This document shows, piece by piece, positions 34,601 to 59,577 of a DNA stretch of 64,000 bases. Position 1 is the stretch's first letter. Every line of letters begins with the position of its first letter. Source of the DNA: Halobacterium sp. DL1 (GTDB lineage: Archaea; Halobacteriota; Halobacteria; Halobacteriales; Halobacteriaceae). Made by a program: the position numbers and the translations under genes. Below the pieces are notes generated by a model that saw only the letters and a list, made by a program, of their open reading frames with translations, ran no database searches and was not told the DNA's origin. The stretch spans positions 248,001-312,000 of the forward strand of contig CP007060.1 of NCBI GenBank assembly GCA_000230955.3, read 5' to 3'.

Positions 34601-34658
34601 TTGGTCCCGGCTTCACACTTAAAACGCCGCACCAGCGTCCGGCGACCGAGCGGAGTCG

Positions 34659-34714
34659 TTCGAGAGAGCGAAGCTCTCTCGTGATGACGAGAGACGCTTA
34701 CGGCGTCTCTCGAA
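34659..34714. repeat. Four-segment inverted-repeat block
   Basis: Segment 1 CGAGAGAGC (34661-34669) pairs with segment 2 GCTCTCTCG (34673-34681); segment 3 CGAGAGACGC (34688-34697) pairs with segment 4 GCGTCTCTCG (34703-34712). Alternatively 1 pairs with 4 (TTCGAGAGA/TCTCTCGAA) and 2 with 3 (CTCTCG/CGAGAG). The two folds exclude each other. Confidence 0.5.
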
Positions 34715-34725
34715 CCACGTAGCGG

Positions 34726-34798
34726 AGTGAGGGAGGAGTGCTTTTGGTGGAGCTTTTGCCGAGGGCTGGCTTCGCCAGCCCACAGCGCAAAAGGTCCG
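34726..34798 (-). repeat. Stop-abutting repeat, copy A (after engB)
   Basis: Read along the minus strand, the repeat begins CGGACCTTTTGCGCTG at the first base after the engB TAG stop, then has an 8-bp hairpin GGGCTGGC/GCCAGCCC with loop GAAG, GGCAAAAG pairing back to CTTTTGC, and CCACCAAAAGCACTCCTC. Nearly identical to copy B at 46759-46831. Confidence 0.75.
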
Positions 34799-35416
34799 CT
34801 AGAAGAACTGCTTCAGGTCGTCGCGCTTCGCGGCCTCGAGGTGGGTGCGGACGGCCTCGTTGAGTGCCTGGATGTTGCCGGTCTTGGCGGTGATGGGGGC
34901 GATGGTGTCCTGCCACTGTTTCCACGGCGGGAGCAGGCCGAGGCGGTCTGCGATGTCGTCCAGCCGTTCGTCGCGGTCGTCGACCTTGTCCATCTTGTTG
35001 ACGGCGACGACGGGCGCGATGCCGAGGTCCTCGAGCAGGTAGAACAGTTCGACGACGTGTGGAATCTCGTCGTCGCCGGAGTGGCGGTCGATGATGTCGA
35101 CGGCGGCCTTCCCGTCGAGGACGAGCACGCCGACCAGGATGTCGTCGGCGTTGGCCTCGAGGTAGTGGACGATGTCTGTCTTGATCTGCTCGCGGTGGTC
35201 GTCCTCGACGCCGGACATGAACCCGAAGCCGGGCAGGTCGGTGACCATGAAGTCCTCGCTCGCCCAGTCGAAGTGGTTGGGCTGGCGGGTGACGCCGGGT
35301 TTCTGTCCCGTCGGTACCTTGTGCCCCGTAATCTCGCGCATCAGCGTCGACTTCCCGACGTTCGACCGGCCGACGAGCACGACCTCGTCGCTCCGGTCCG
35401 GTCGGTTCTCGAACAT
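34799..35416 (-). CDS. engB: Ribosome-biogenesis GTPase EngB
   Basis: A 205-aa TRAFAC-class GTPase. G1 is GRSNVGKST (about 16-24), G3 DLPGFGF (about 60-66), G4 NKMD (about 140-143) and G5 ITAKTG. EngB/YihA acts late in large ribosomal subunit assembly. The stop is followed immediately by the 73-bp repeat. No other gene is within an operon distance on this strand. Confidence 0.92.
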
Positions 35417-35591
35417 ACCCAGGGTAGCCAGCGGTCGGGGTTAAACCTCGCGTCCGAGCCCGAGACGTTTCACTCCACTCCCCGTTCGCTCAGCCCGAGA
35501 CGCTTCGCTTCGCTCACCGTCTCGCGGACGCTCAAACGCTGCTTTGAGTCCTGGGGAGGTTAAAGCAGTAGGCCGCCGAAGGGGTTCATGT

Positions 35592-46197: not shown

Positions 46198-46236
46198 GCC
46201 GGGATGTTTATGTCTCGCGGCGTTTAACGTCACCTC
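46198..46236. promoter_or_regulatory. Divergent leaderless promoters of UPF0146 and amzA
   Basis: In 39 bp between opposite start codons, TTTATG (46207-46212) is the right distance to drive amzA on the plus strand, and GTTAAAC (46222-46228, minus strand) is the right distance to drive UPF0146. Each TATA box lies inside the initiation zone of the other, so occupancy should be mutually exclusive. Confidence 0.65.
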
Positions 46237-46758
46237 ATGCGCGTAGACATCGTCCCCGTCGGCGACGTGCCCGCGCAGGTCAAGCGCGAGGCCTCCTCGA
46301 GCCTCCGCTCGGTCTACGACTGCGACGTGGTCGTCGCCAGCGAACAAGAGGTTCCCCAGGGGGCGTACGACGACGCGCGAAGCCAGTACCGCGCCGCGGA
46401 ACTCATCGACCTCGCGACCCGCGTCAGCGACGGCGACAAGACCCTCGCCATCACCCCCGAGGACCTCTTCTACCGCCGCCGCAACTACGTCTTCGGCCTC
46501 GCGTACCTCGACGGCCGGGGCTGCGTCGTCTCCACCTACCGGCTCCAGACGTCGAGTGACGGCGGCTTCTCCGAGCGCCCCGCTGCCGACGTCTTCGACG
46601 ACCGCGTCCGCAAGGAGGTCGTCCACGAACTCGGCCACACGCTCGGCCTCGAACACTGCGACAACAACCGCTGCGCGATGAACTTCTCCCCCACCGTCCG
46701 GGAGGTCGACCGCAAGGAGGAGAACCTCTGCGGGAGCTGCCAAAGAACCGTTTTCTGA
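46237..46758 (+). CDS. amzA: Archaemetzincin
   Basis: A 173-aa zinc protease. The core motif HELGHTLGLEHC (His130, Glu131, His134, His140) is followed by a second metal site with Cys141, Cys146, Cys165 and Cys168 (CDNNRCAM...CGSC), the hallmark of archaemetzincins. Substrates are unknown. The mRNA is probably leaderless. The 73-bp repeat starts at the base after the stop codon. Confidence 0.92.
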   Translation: MRVDIVPVGDVPAQVKREASSSLRSVYDCDVVVASEQEVPQGAYDDARSQYRAAELIDLATRVSDGDKTLAITPEDLFYRRRNYVFGLAYLDGRGCVVSTYRLQTSSDGGFSERPAADVFDDRVRKEVVHELGHTLGLEHCDNNRCAMNFSPTVREVDRKEENLCGSCQRTVF

Positions 46759-46831
46759 CGGACCTTTTGCGCTGCGGGCTGGCTTCGCCAGCCCTCGGCA
46801 AAACCTCCACCAAAAGCACTCCTCGCTCACT
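46759..46831 (+). repeat. Stop-abutting repeat, copy B (after amzA)
   Basis: Begins CGGACCTTTTGCGCTG immediately after the amzA TGA stop, then hairpin GGGCTGGC/GCCAGCCC with loop TTCG, GGCAAAA, CCACCAAAAGCACTCCTC. It matches copy A (34798 down to 34726) with about eight differences in roughly 80 bases; four of these are the loop, which is the reverse complement of the other. The remainder of the 265-bp gap to the next gene shows only AGCG/CGCT-rich sequence. Confidence 0.75.
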
Positions 46832-47023
46832 TCGCTAGCGCTCCGTTCGCTCGTCGGCCTCCGCTCGTTCGCGTCGCTCACTCGCGGAGTGAATCGCGGC
46901 ACTCGGGTTCTTCGAACCGCTCGCGCCGCGAATGCTACAGTTTGCTGGTTAGTTCTGCTGTAGCTTCTCGGCGCACCCATCCGAGAACGGCCGGAATCGC
47001 CGGCCAGCCGGGCGTCCGCCCGG

Positions 47024-54554: not shown

Positions 54555-56066
54555 ATGGCGACAGAGGCTACGACGGAAGCCCCGGAAGCGTACGACGCCC
54601 TCCTCGACCACTACGAGCAGCTGTCGAACGTCAACAGCGCGAACATGCTGCTCTCCTGGGACCAGGAGGTCATGATGCCCGAGGGCGGGACGCCCGCCCG
54701 CTCCCAGCAGAAGTCCGCGCTCTCCTCGCTCTCCCACGACCTGCTCACCGAGGACAAGGTCGGCGATTGGCTCGACGAACTCGCCGAGGCCGACCTGACG
54801 GACGAGCAGGATGCCGTGGTGCGCGAGATTCGACGCGAGTACGAGCGCGCCGACCGCGTCCCGAACGACCTGGTGGCCGAGATATCCGAGAAGACCTCCG
54901 AGGCGCTCCCGAAGTGGAAGGAAGCGAAAGAGGAAGACGACTTCTCCATCTTCGCGCCCATCCTCGAGGAACTCATCGAGTTGAAGAAGGAGTACGCGGC
55001 GCACATCGACGACGAGGCCGACCCCTACGAGGTGCTGTTCGCGGACTACGAGCCGTACCTCGACCTCGAGACCGCCGAACGGGTACTCGAACGTCTCCGC
55101 GAGGAACTCGTCCCGCTAATCGCGGACATCCGCGAGAGCGACGTCGAACTCGCCGACCCCTTCGAGGGCGACTTCGACGTGGACACCCAGGAGGAACTCG
55201 CCCGGGACACCCTCGACACGCTCGGATACGACTGGGAGCACGGCCGCCTCGACACCGCCCCGCACCCGTTCTCGACGGGGAACCAGTTCGACGCCCGGGT
55301 CACCACGCGGTTCGCCGAAGACGACCCGCTCGGCGCGCTCACCTCGACCATCCACGAGTTCGGCCACGCGCGCTACACGCTCGGCCTCCCCCGTGAGCAG
55401 TACGGCAACCCGCTCGGCGAGTCCCGAGACCTCACCGTCCACGAGTCCCAGAGCCGCCTCTGGGAGAACCACGTCGGGCGCTCCCGCGTCTTCTGGGAGA
55501 AGTTCCTCCCCGCGATGAAGGAGCGATTCCCGCAGGTCGAGGACGCTACCCCCGAGGACGCCTACGAGGCCGCCAACGAGGTGTACGAGGACAACCTCAT
55601 CCGGGTCGAGGCGGACGAACTCACCTACCACATGCACATCATCGTCCGCTTCGAGATCGAGCGCGAACTCATCGAGGGCGACCTCGACGTCGCGGACGTC
55701 CCCGAGCGCTGGAACGACAAGTACGAGGAGTACCTCGGCATCCGACCCGAGACCGACGCGGAGGGCTGCCTCCAGGACATCCACTGGAGCCACGGCTCCT
55801 TCGGTTACTTCCCGACGTACTCGCTGGGCAGCGTGCTCGCCGCCCAGATTTACGACGCTCTCGAAGCCGACGTGGGCGACGTCGAGGCGAAGGTCCGCGA
55901 AGGCAACTTCGACGTCATCGCGGAGTGGCTCGAAGAGAACGTCCACCAGCACGGCGCCCGCTACACCACGCCCGAACTCGTCGAGGAAGCCACCGGCGAG
56001 GAGTACAACGCCGACCACTTCGTCGACTACGTCACCGAGAAGTACGCGGAACTGTACGACCTGTAA
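54555..56066 (+). CDS. M32 carboxypeptidase, copy 1
   Basis: A 503-aa metallocarboxypeptidase of the Taq/Pfu type. The metal site is HEFGHARY (His267, Glu268, His271) and the HESQSRLWENHVGRS motif (about 296-310) provides the third ligand, with [10 protein letters not shown]-like [18 protein letters not shown] in the C-terminal part. It removes C-terminal residues broadly. Paralogous to the gene at 58069, sharing most of its length. The start is ATG 54555. Confidence 0.95.
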   Translation: MATEATTEAPEAYDALLDHYEQLSNVNSANMLLSWDQEVMMPEGGTPARSQQKSALSSLSHDLLTEDKVGDWLDELAEADLTDEQDAVVREIRREYERADRVPNDLVAEISEKTSEALPKWKEAKEEDDFSIFAPILEELIELKKEYAAHIDDEADPYEVLFADYEPYLDLETAERVLERLREELVPLIADIRESDVELADPFEGDFDVDTQEELARDTLDTLGYDWEHGRLDTAPHPFSTGNQFDARVTTRFAEDDPLGALTSTIHEFGHARYTLGLPREQYGNPLGESRDLTVHESQSRLWENHVGRSRVFWEKFLPAMKERFPQVEDATPEDAYEAANEVYEDNLIRVEADELTYHMHIIVRFEIERELIEGDLDVADVPERWNDKYEEYLGIRPETDAEGCLQDIHWSHGSFGYFPTYSLGSVLAAQIYDALEADVGDVEAKVREGNFDVIAEWLEENVHQHGARYTTPELVEEATGEEYNADHFVDYVTEKYAELYDL

Positions 56067-58068: not shown

Positions 58069-59577
58069 ATGGCGACGAACACCCCCGAATCGGCGGCGTC
58101 CGAACCGGACGCCTACGAGGCCCTCGAAGAGCGGACGAAGCGACTCTCCTACCTCGGCGACGCCCGCGGCGTCCTCGGCTGGGACCAGCGCGTGATGATG
58201 CCCGAGGGCGGCGCGCCAGCCCGCGGCAAACAGCTCTCGGCGCTGATGACGGTGAGCCACGACCTGCTCACCGACGACGAGGTGGGCGAGTGGCTCGACG
58301 AACTCGACGGCCGCGACCTCGACGACGACCAGCAGGTGCTCGTCCGGGAACTCCGCCGGCGCTACGAGCGCTCGGACAGCGTCACCAGCGACCTCGTCGC
58401 CGAGCTGACGGAGACGCAGTCCGACGCACAGCAGGTGTGGGAGGACGCCAAGGCCGCCGCCGACTTCTCGCAGTTCGCGCCCACCCTCGCGGACCTCCGG
58501 GACCTCCACGTCGAGCGCGCCGAACAGATCGACCCCGGGACGGACCCCTACGAGGTGATGTTCGAGGACGGCGAGCCGTACCTCCCGCTGGACCGCGTCG
58601 AGGAGATATTCGACACGCTCCGCGAGGAACTCGTCCCGCTCGTCGCGGACATCAAGGACAGCGACGCGGAGTTCACGTCGCCGTTCGCCGGGGAGTACGA
58701 CGACGACACCCAGATGGGGCTCTGCCGCGAGATCGTCGACCGACTGGGCTACGACTGGAATCGGGGTCGCCTCGACACCGCGCCCCACCCGTTCATGGTC
58801 GGCCCGCAGTTCGACGCCCGCATCACGACCCGGTTCACGTCCGACGACCCCGTGGACGCGATGCTGTCGACCATCCACGAGTTCGGTCACGCGAGCTACC
58901 AGCACGGCCTCCGCGACGACGCCTACGGCCTGCCGCTCGGCCAGTCCCGCTCGTCGGGCGTCCACGAGTCCCAGTCGCGGTTCTGGGAGAACCACATCGG
59001 GCGCACGGAGGCGTTCTGGGAGTACGCCGTGCCGTTCGTCAACGAACGCCTCGGGACCGACGCCGACCCCCGGGCGGCCTACGAGGCGGTCAACCGCATC
59101 TACCCGGACAACTGCATCCGCGTGGAGGCGGACGAACTCACCTACCACATGCACATCATCCTCCGCTCGGACGTCGAGAAGGCGTTCGTCTCCGGCGACC
59201 TGGCGGTCGAAGACGTCCCGGAGCGGTGGAACGACCTGATGGAGGAGTACCTGGGCATCCGTCCCGAGACCGACGCGGAGGGCTGTCTGCAGGACATCCA
59301 CTGGACGGGGGGCTTCGGGTCCTTCCAGAACTACACTGTGGGGAGCGTGCTCGCCGCCCAACTCGACGCGACGATGCGCGAGGACCTCGACGTCGACGGC
59401 CTGGTCCGCGAGGGCGAGTTCGAACCCATCCGCGAGTGGCTCACCGAGCACGTCCATCGGCACGGCCAGCGGTACACGACCGACGAACTCGTCGAAGTCG
59501 CCACCGGCGAACCGCTGACCGCGGACTACTTCGTCGACTACGCCCGCGAGAAGTTCGGCGACCTCTACGACCTGTAG
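58069..59577 (+). CDS. M32 carboxypeptidase, copy 2
   Basis: A 502-aa paralogue of the gene at 54555. It retains [22 protein letters not shown] and [17 protein letters not shown], so it should be active. It is more diverged at the N-terminus ([19 protein letters not shown]). The ATG at 58069, after a GGGGGTG stretch, matches copy 1 better than an ATG five codons upstream. The two copies flank the GNAT and dehydrogenase genes. Confidence 0.95.

Follow-up and report, generated by a model that had tools for sequence, protein, structure and literature searches.

Transposase-free repeats have been described in the haloarchaeon Haloquadratum walsbyi, where, in the passages of that description covered here (PMC3119063), SMR-A and SMR-B are units of 80–110 bp with inverted terminal repeats, no transposase and no target duplication, whose mobilisation is called enigmatic. 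According to the same passages, the insertion targets of SMR-A are palindromes close to the ends of PATEs and IS605-type transposons. For Escherichia coli, the available part of the RepRanger report (PMC12306157) places 446 of the 4072 predicted REPs no more than 15 nt from a stop codon. As to transcript ends, T stretches are an intergenic termination motif in Haloferax volcanii; in a reporter, one T stretch terminated 95% of transcripts and one hairpin 59%, and the sections of that paper covered here make no mention of these terminators as a repeat family (PMC7237163). 

Here we analyse a repeat present twice in the window, a 64-kb stretch of the genome G000 (C1:248001–312000). Like the SMRs, as far as the passages of PMC3119063 describe them, the element is short, transposase-free and dispersed in a haloarchaeon, and a near-identical pair in genome G225 fits this likeness. 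Unlike them, by description only, it is found at the 3' ends of chromosomal genes and is kept at orthologous positions, and the SMR target preference is not seen, the element heads adjoining stops, tRNA ends and promoters. With REP and BIME sequences it shares the dispersal of extragenic palindromes near gene 3' ends, in many copies per genome, but it is about 180 bp long, has several hairpins and one orientation, lies at −3 to +4 of a stop in 115 of 155 copies, and is not tracked by a Y1/RAYT-type transposase. It resembles archaeal T-stretch terminators in having a T tract just 3' of genes, with hairpins near some sites, whereas its tract, unlike those in the covered sections on Haloferax (PMC7237163), belongs to a repeated, covarying unit. 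Subterminal palindromes and, by eye in the G225 pair, no target duplication would recall PATEs and IS200/IS605 ends, from which the element differs in placement, in internal anatomy and in that no correlating transposase partner was found. No paper matching the element was found among the titles, abstracts and passages searched, a scope with subscription journals mostly outside it, the Haloquadratum SMRs being nearest; the family seems previously undescribed.

Results

Both copies in the window begin directly behind a stop codon with no base between, one behind engB and one behind amzA (Table 1), as the original prediction had stated, and the identities of the upstream genes (EngB GTPase and archaemetzincin) were confirmed. 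Together they form the longest inverted repeat of the window, an 85-nt pair that is 89% complementary. The predicted length of 73 bp was too short: alignment with other copies revealed that homologous, more divergent sequence continues to 34634 (engB) and 46936 (amzA), and the copies each span 165–178 bp. The hairpin loop, initially read as 4 nt (GAAG/TTCG), is 3 nt long (TTC or GAA) on an 8-bp stem, the fourth nucleotide being a stem base. The flip of this hairpin between the two copies is real, but nothing special within the family, where 81 of 128 hairpins have TNC loops and 20 have GNA loops.

Table 1. Coordinates of the element copies, their parts and the adjoining genes in the window.
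Feature	Position	Strand	Remarks
Element copy 3' of engB	34634–34798	−	head/core 34798–34733, then divergent second half
Second half of engB copy		−	own inserted hairpin module; end GGACGCT (reverse complement) 34640–34634
T4 tract, engB copy	34789–34792	−	starts 6 nt past engB stop
Variable hairpin P1, engB copy	34763–34781	−	GGGCTGGC-GAA-GCCAGCCC
engB reading frame (GTP-binding protein EngB)	34799–35440	−	stop TAG 34801–34799
Full-length element copy 3' of amzA	46759–46936	+	end GAATGCT
X, amzA copy	46760–46762	+	GGA; partner X' TCC at 46806–46808
TTTTGC, amzA copy	46765–46770	+	partner GCAAAA at 46798–46803
Variable hairpin P1, amzA copy	46776–46794	+	GGGCTGGC-TTC-GCCAGCCC
Conserved second A tract and box, amzA copy	46812–46824	+	box AAAAGCACTCCTC
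Hairpin H3, amzA copy	46860–46888	+	TCCGC...GCGGA, between GTCGTCGGCC and GTGAA
Hairpin H4, amzA copy	46894–46936	+	TCGCGGC/GCCGCGA around GGTTC-TTC-GAACC; end GAATGCT
amzA reading frame (archaemetzincin)	46228–46758	+	stop TGA 46756–46758

The window copies are members of a dispersed, palindrome-rich element family, roughly 180 bp in length. By blastn, 18 places in G000 matched the amzA copy, and a covariance model gave 43 matches at E≤1, palindromic mirror matches included. Thirty loci were fetched, two of which (L056 and L058) were set aside as mirror hits of palindromes, leaving 28 non-artefact loci. An alignment of 17 copies revealed the order of the head: X (3 nt), CC or C, T4–5, GC, the perfect but variable hairpin P1, GC, A4–5, a linker with X', A4–5 and GCACTCCTC. 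In the window copies the head closes with GCAAAA, X' and AAAAGCACTCCTC. Further hairpins follow, and the second half reads, in the same alignment, as a variable low-complexity stretch, GTCGTCGGCC, H3, GTGAACCGC, H4 (enclosing an inner hairpin of the GGGTTC-TTC-GAACC type) and the terminal GRAYGCT.

Distinct copies, 155 in number, were pooled over families f1, f5, f6, f7 and f8. The A-tract core was present in 148 and a GTCGG-type box in 149; 122 also had a GTGAA-type box and 70 also, in order, GRAYGCT, with a median length to GRAYGCT of 181 nt in those 70. A T tract of at least 4 was at the expected place in 150, and in 123 of these 150 a stop triplet, in any frame, ended 3–10 nt earlier. Lengths of the T, first A and second A tracts, read in a set of 111 copies (5 unparsed), were 4/4/4 in 65, 5/5/5 in 31 and mixed in 10 of the 106 parsed copies. 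Five copies (L078, L069, L072, L131 and L141) contain extra nested hairpin modules in P1, for instance CTGCTCACGG...CCGTTCGCAC, so that palindromes seem to have been inserted into palindromes.

Distance and strand of the elements relative to stop codons were not random, and this test did not refute the stop-linked role proposed originally. In G000, a same-strand coding ORF had its stop at −2 to +4 nt in 22 of 28 loci (two of them after realignment). For the pooled copies, the head was found at −3 to +4 nt in 115 of 155, and in 100 of 140 when the 15 copies collected via the engB and amzA searches were removed. Shifted positions gave 13 of 8624, and the opposite strand 0 of 155. Among relatives, 71 copies from 60 loci chosen among the best model matches were inspected; a coding ORF was upstream for 62, with 53 of them within −3 to +3, and for families f5, f6 and f8 the corresponding numbers were 32 of 44 copies and 24. 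A stop-linked 3' element is supported by these counts.

The six remaining G000 loci were at +19 (one), at a tRNA-Ser end (one), after a duplicated tRNA 3' end, Leu or Arg (two), or facing away from a divergent start (two; L036, by eye, and L038 at rps12). About 25 genes of G000 thus have an element exactly at their end. The 40 exceptions in the pooled set include tRNA neighbours, real exceptions, and heads at which another ORF, low-scoring or second-best, ends as well (e.g. L120, L115 on the minus strand, L208). Heads were found directly at the 3' ends of tRNA-Ser, -Leu and -Ala (gap of −1, 0 and 1). The element is not stop-specific, since tRNA 3' ends also have heads next to them and a minority of heads adjoin the promoter side of a divergently transcribed gene, for instance rps12. 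The interpretation made originally is supported in part.

In the convergent pair surE/ycaO, each gene has its own copy. T4 within 12 nt of the gene end was found at 2 of 27 gene ends in the window, both element-bearing, and TTTT in 1.2% of noncoding 16-mers. Upstream genes in G000 encode NusA, SurE, a YcaO protein, a KaiC-like protein, prephenate dehydratase, a CDP-archaeol synthase-type protein, methionine adenosyltransferase, aRF1, PCNA, EF-1beta, DnaJ, SufS, a TatC protein, a 2-oxoacid:ferredoxin oxidoreductase subunit and PEP synthase. No functional class is prominent among them, and 4 of the 20 upstream proteins scanned had no protein family match.

Several loci have an arrangement of their own. 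The nusA–rps12 gap holds two tail-to-tail elements (L033/L038 in G000; L115 in G010 and L117 in G009, by eye), with one head at the nusA stop and the other at a TATA-like box of rps12. At five loci (L032, L128, L060, L092 and L201; Leu, Leu, Arg, Lys and Leu) a unit of about 100 nt (99–116 nt) separates the tRNA from the element head. It consists of a T-rich start, a stretch rich in purines and similar to GAGCGAACGCGAGGAGCG, part of the T arm of that tRNA copied in inverted form, a small hairpin, and the 3' end of the same tRNA repeated directly (an exact match of 22–24 nt at three loci, judged by eye at the other two), after which comes the element. At L089 and L114, elements follow a common sequence of about 25 nt that ends in GGGCGTACA and is not an ORF end; L089 has it twice, 1.5 kb apart, with an element after each. 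This sequence matched no Rfam family and is possibly an RNA gene of a new type. At L135 (1935) and L142 (1874) the head adjoins an antisense stretch that resembles, by eye, the C-terminus of an Elp3-type acetyltransferase; its 26-residue piece had no NCBIfam match.

The fold was evaluated on 47 ungapped cores of 66 nt, picked for equal length among the copies in hand. In the proposed fold, 97.4% of 846 cells were paired, and the covariation score was 0.441, versus 0.099 for shuffles, none of 500 reaching the observed value; slid controls gave at most 0.071. Covariation resides in X:X', the T/A tracts and the P1 hairpin. One X:X' pair was CG in 30 cores and GC in 17, the next had four pair types, and a wider set of copies revealed GTA/TAC, GGA/TCC, CGA/TCG, GCA/TGC, CCA/TGG, GAA/TTC and CTAAA/TTTAG. 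In some copies this pairing is broken, several having GGA with TAC, not TCC (e.g. L032, L039, L050). The T tract matches the second A tract in length, which might allow the two to pair, but the flanking bases follow the first A tract.

Wobble pairs were rare: G.U and A.C were each counted 6 times among the 846 cells of the 47-row set, and in the folded hairpins of 100 copies G.U accounted for 15 of the 1101 pairs read in sense and for 8 of the 1089 read in antisense. As G.U is no commoner than A.C, the palindrome seems to be maintained at the DNA level, or through copying of one arm from the other. Near-pure Watson-Crick pairing points to DNA palindromes, not RNA structure, and RNA structure as the main selected object was downgraded after this count. 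GNA loops are very stable in DNA. A C.C mismatch recurs, by eye, within otherwise perfect helices. In 15 element loci and 16 further loci, no Rfam family other than tRNAs scored above the gathering score; membership in an Rfam family was discarded, a permissive search having given a chance match only.

With stricter filters and E≤1e-6, the element was detected in 129 of 293 genomes, and in 44 of 87 genera of the order; at E≤0.01 it was found in 27 of 40 genomes, its own included. Within the genus, 11 of the 12 other genomes had 13–47 model matches each (mirror hits included, E≤0.01), and G006 had none. An intact element was present at the amzA site in 11 of 13 same-genus genomes, decayed in G004 and missing in G006. 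At the engB site it was present in 7 and absent in 5 of them, with G005 excluded and G008 counted from model matches. For a set of 14 genes, the close relative G010 shared 11 sites, some shortened or decayed, and was without the element at 3. Eleven sites were readable in G006, of which none was intact and two, nusA and korB, had decayed remnants; this genome is a natural, exploitable case of element loss within the genus. Between relatives, the position directly behind the sufS stop either has the element or is cleanly without it, and at nusA the T4 and T5 classes are switched and the P1 palindrome differs, though the gene ends are 92% identical. Sites are retained across species and hairpins turn over.

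A megaplasmid of Natrinema thermotolerans carries one copy, between gyrB and gyrA. A scan of contigs with a pattern one N too long for the T4 class gave a single match, in Halobacterium sp. CBA1126, and is thus of little value for the distribution among named species. A recent burst in the G000 lineage had been considered on account of one hairpin sequence common to both window copies and the ycaO copy. It was rejected as unproven, because the engB site and, by eye, the ycaO site bear the element in other species as well.

In G225, two copies share 99% identity over 163 bp and have flanks that are unrelated; a diverged third is present. The two are bounded by TCACTACA(G/C)G and CCTGTACT; their ends, near TCACTACAGG at the start and CCTGTACT at the end, form an imperfect inverted pair of 8–10 bp, and no target duplication was seen by eye. 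Such an end pair was found only in the G225 group, other copies ending at gene boundaries. A phage or virus origin was rejected, no copy having been found in phage and viral collections (the two viral scans used exact patterns). Y1_Tnp was absent from seven element-bearing genomes (G002, G004, G005, G007, G008, G012 and G017), and G006 had two Y1 matches and no element match. Mobilisation of the REP/RAYT kind was rejected as well, since the presence of the Y1 (IS200-type) transposase does not track the element.

Discussion

Our preferred reading, held tentatively, is that the element marks and terminates gene 3' ends and is dispersed like the Haloquadratum small mobile repeats. Transcription would end at the gene boundary, on the T4/T5 tract a few nucleotides past the gene end and the strong hairpins that immediately follow, and the A tracts, which are T tracts on the other strand, may block transcription from the opposite side. 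Spreading would be rare, through recombination between copies and by a route that needs no transposase. Support comes from the placement at stops and tRNA 3' ends, the separate copies of the convergent surE and ycaO, the scarcity of T tracts at the other gene ends of the window, T-stretch termination in Haloferax volcanii (PMC7237163), the covariation, the spread through the order and the retention of sites whose hairpins change. Against a terminator speak the empty orthologous sites of G010 and G006, which have no T tract near the stop, so that those genes do without it; the lack of any model match in G006, with decayed remnants at 2 of 11 sites, makes the element dispensable. Termination at the Natrinema copy would cut off gyrA unless this gene has its own promoter, and a T tract alone does not account for the boxes and hairpins conserved over another 100 bp and more. 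Some heads, though a minority, point away from a divergent promoter, and two nearly identical copies are not at gene ends.

The element could instead be a selfish, transposase-free mobile repeat of the SMR kind, without host function, with a preference for insertion at the 3' boundaries of genes and with T and A tracts that belong to its own folded recognition structure. We consider this unlikely, though a real contender. The G225 pair with its unrelated flanks and imperfect inverted ends, the clean presence or absence at sufS between close relatives, the copy number varying among genomes and the decay in G006 all argue for it, and the recurrent C.C mismatch, seen by eye, would be in keeping with a protein that recognises the folded strand. 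However, sites are mostly common to species (11 of 14 in G010; 11 intact and 1 decayed of 13 at amzA), unlike the scatter of active insertion, phage and viral collections held no copy, and no partner enzyme was found, the IS200-type transposase not tracking the element. Rather improbable, in our estimate, is a self-rewriting DNA foldback, that is, a 3'-boundary element which diversifies its sequence with no transposase. Replication or repair synthesis on a strand snapped back at the gene end would copy the boundary bases (X) into X', and at tRNA loci would make the whole inverted and direct copy of the tRNA 3' end. Such copying would keep palindromes perfect, flip loops and let them turn over between sister species, while the gene-end position is kept.

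A structured RNA in the 3' UTR, acting on mRNA stability or on the termination of translation, would account for the constant sense orientation right after stops, the strong covariation and the conserved unpaired boxes. We find it quite improbable, given that G.U and A.C are equally frequent (6 of 846 each), unlike typical RNA under selection, that the same element is found 3' of tRNA genes and at divergent promoters, and that Rfam gave no match. Watson-Crick pairing without wobble bias, GNA as the main loop type of the template strand (81 of 128 hairpins), and placement at 3' ends and tail to tail would all suit a haloarchaeal analogue of BIMEs, in which cruciforms or putative sites for gyrase or an architectural protein absorb positive supercoils at gene ends; yet DNA topology, which we likewise judge quite improbable, explains neither the exact junction with the stop nor the constant orientation (the opposite strand having 0 of 155). 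Haloarchaeal intergenic DNA is rich in low-complexity CGCTC/TTCG sequence, from which a chance resemblance, or an artefact of gene calling, might arise. With control rates of 0.15% and 0% against 74%, and a covariation above all 500 shuffles, this reading is hardly credible, and was refuted by the placement controls and the covariation test.

Because the family has dozens of copies, is placed at gene ends with a precision of a few nucleotides, is naturally present or absent between close relatives and has a strongly covarying fold, it makes both the ending of haloarchaeal transcripts and the role of intergenic repeated palindromes directly testable. The element could also serve as a portable boundary part in haloarchaeal genetics, and its lack of wobble, flipping loops and tRNA-specific copies offer a handle on how perfect DNA palindromes are made and kept.

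Apart from this family, the window contains two long direct repeats (54651–56065 and 58174–59576), 3.5 kb apart, with segments that are 69–79% identical; these are probably paralogous genes.
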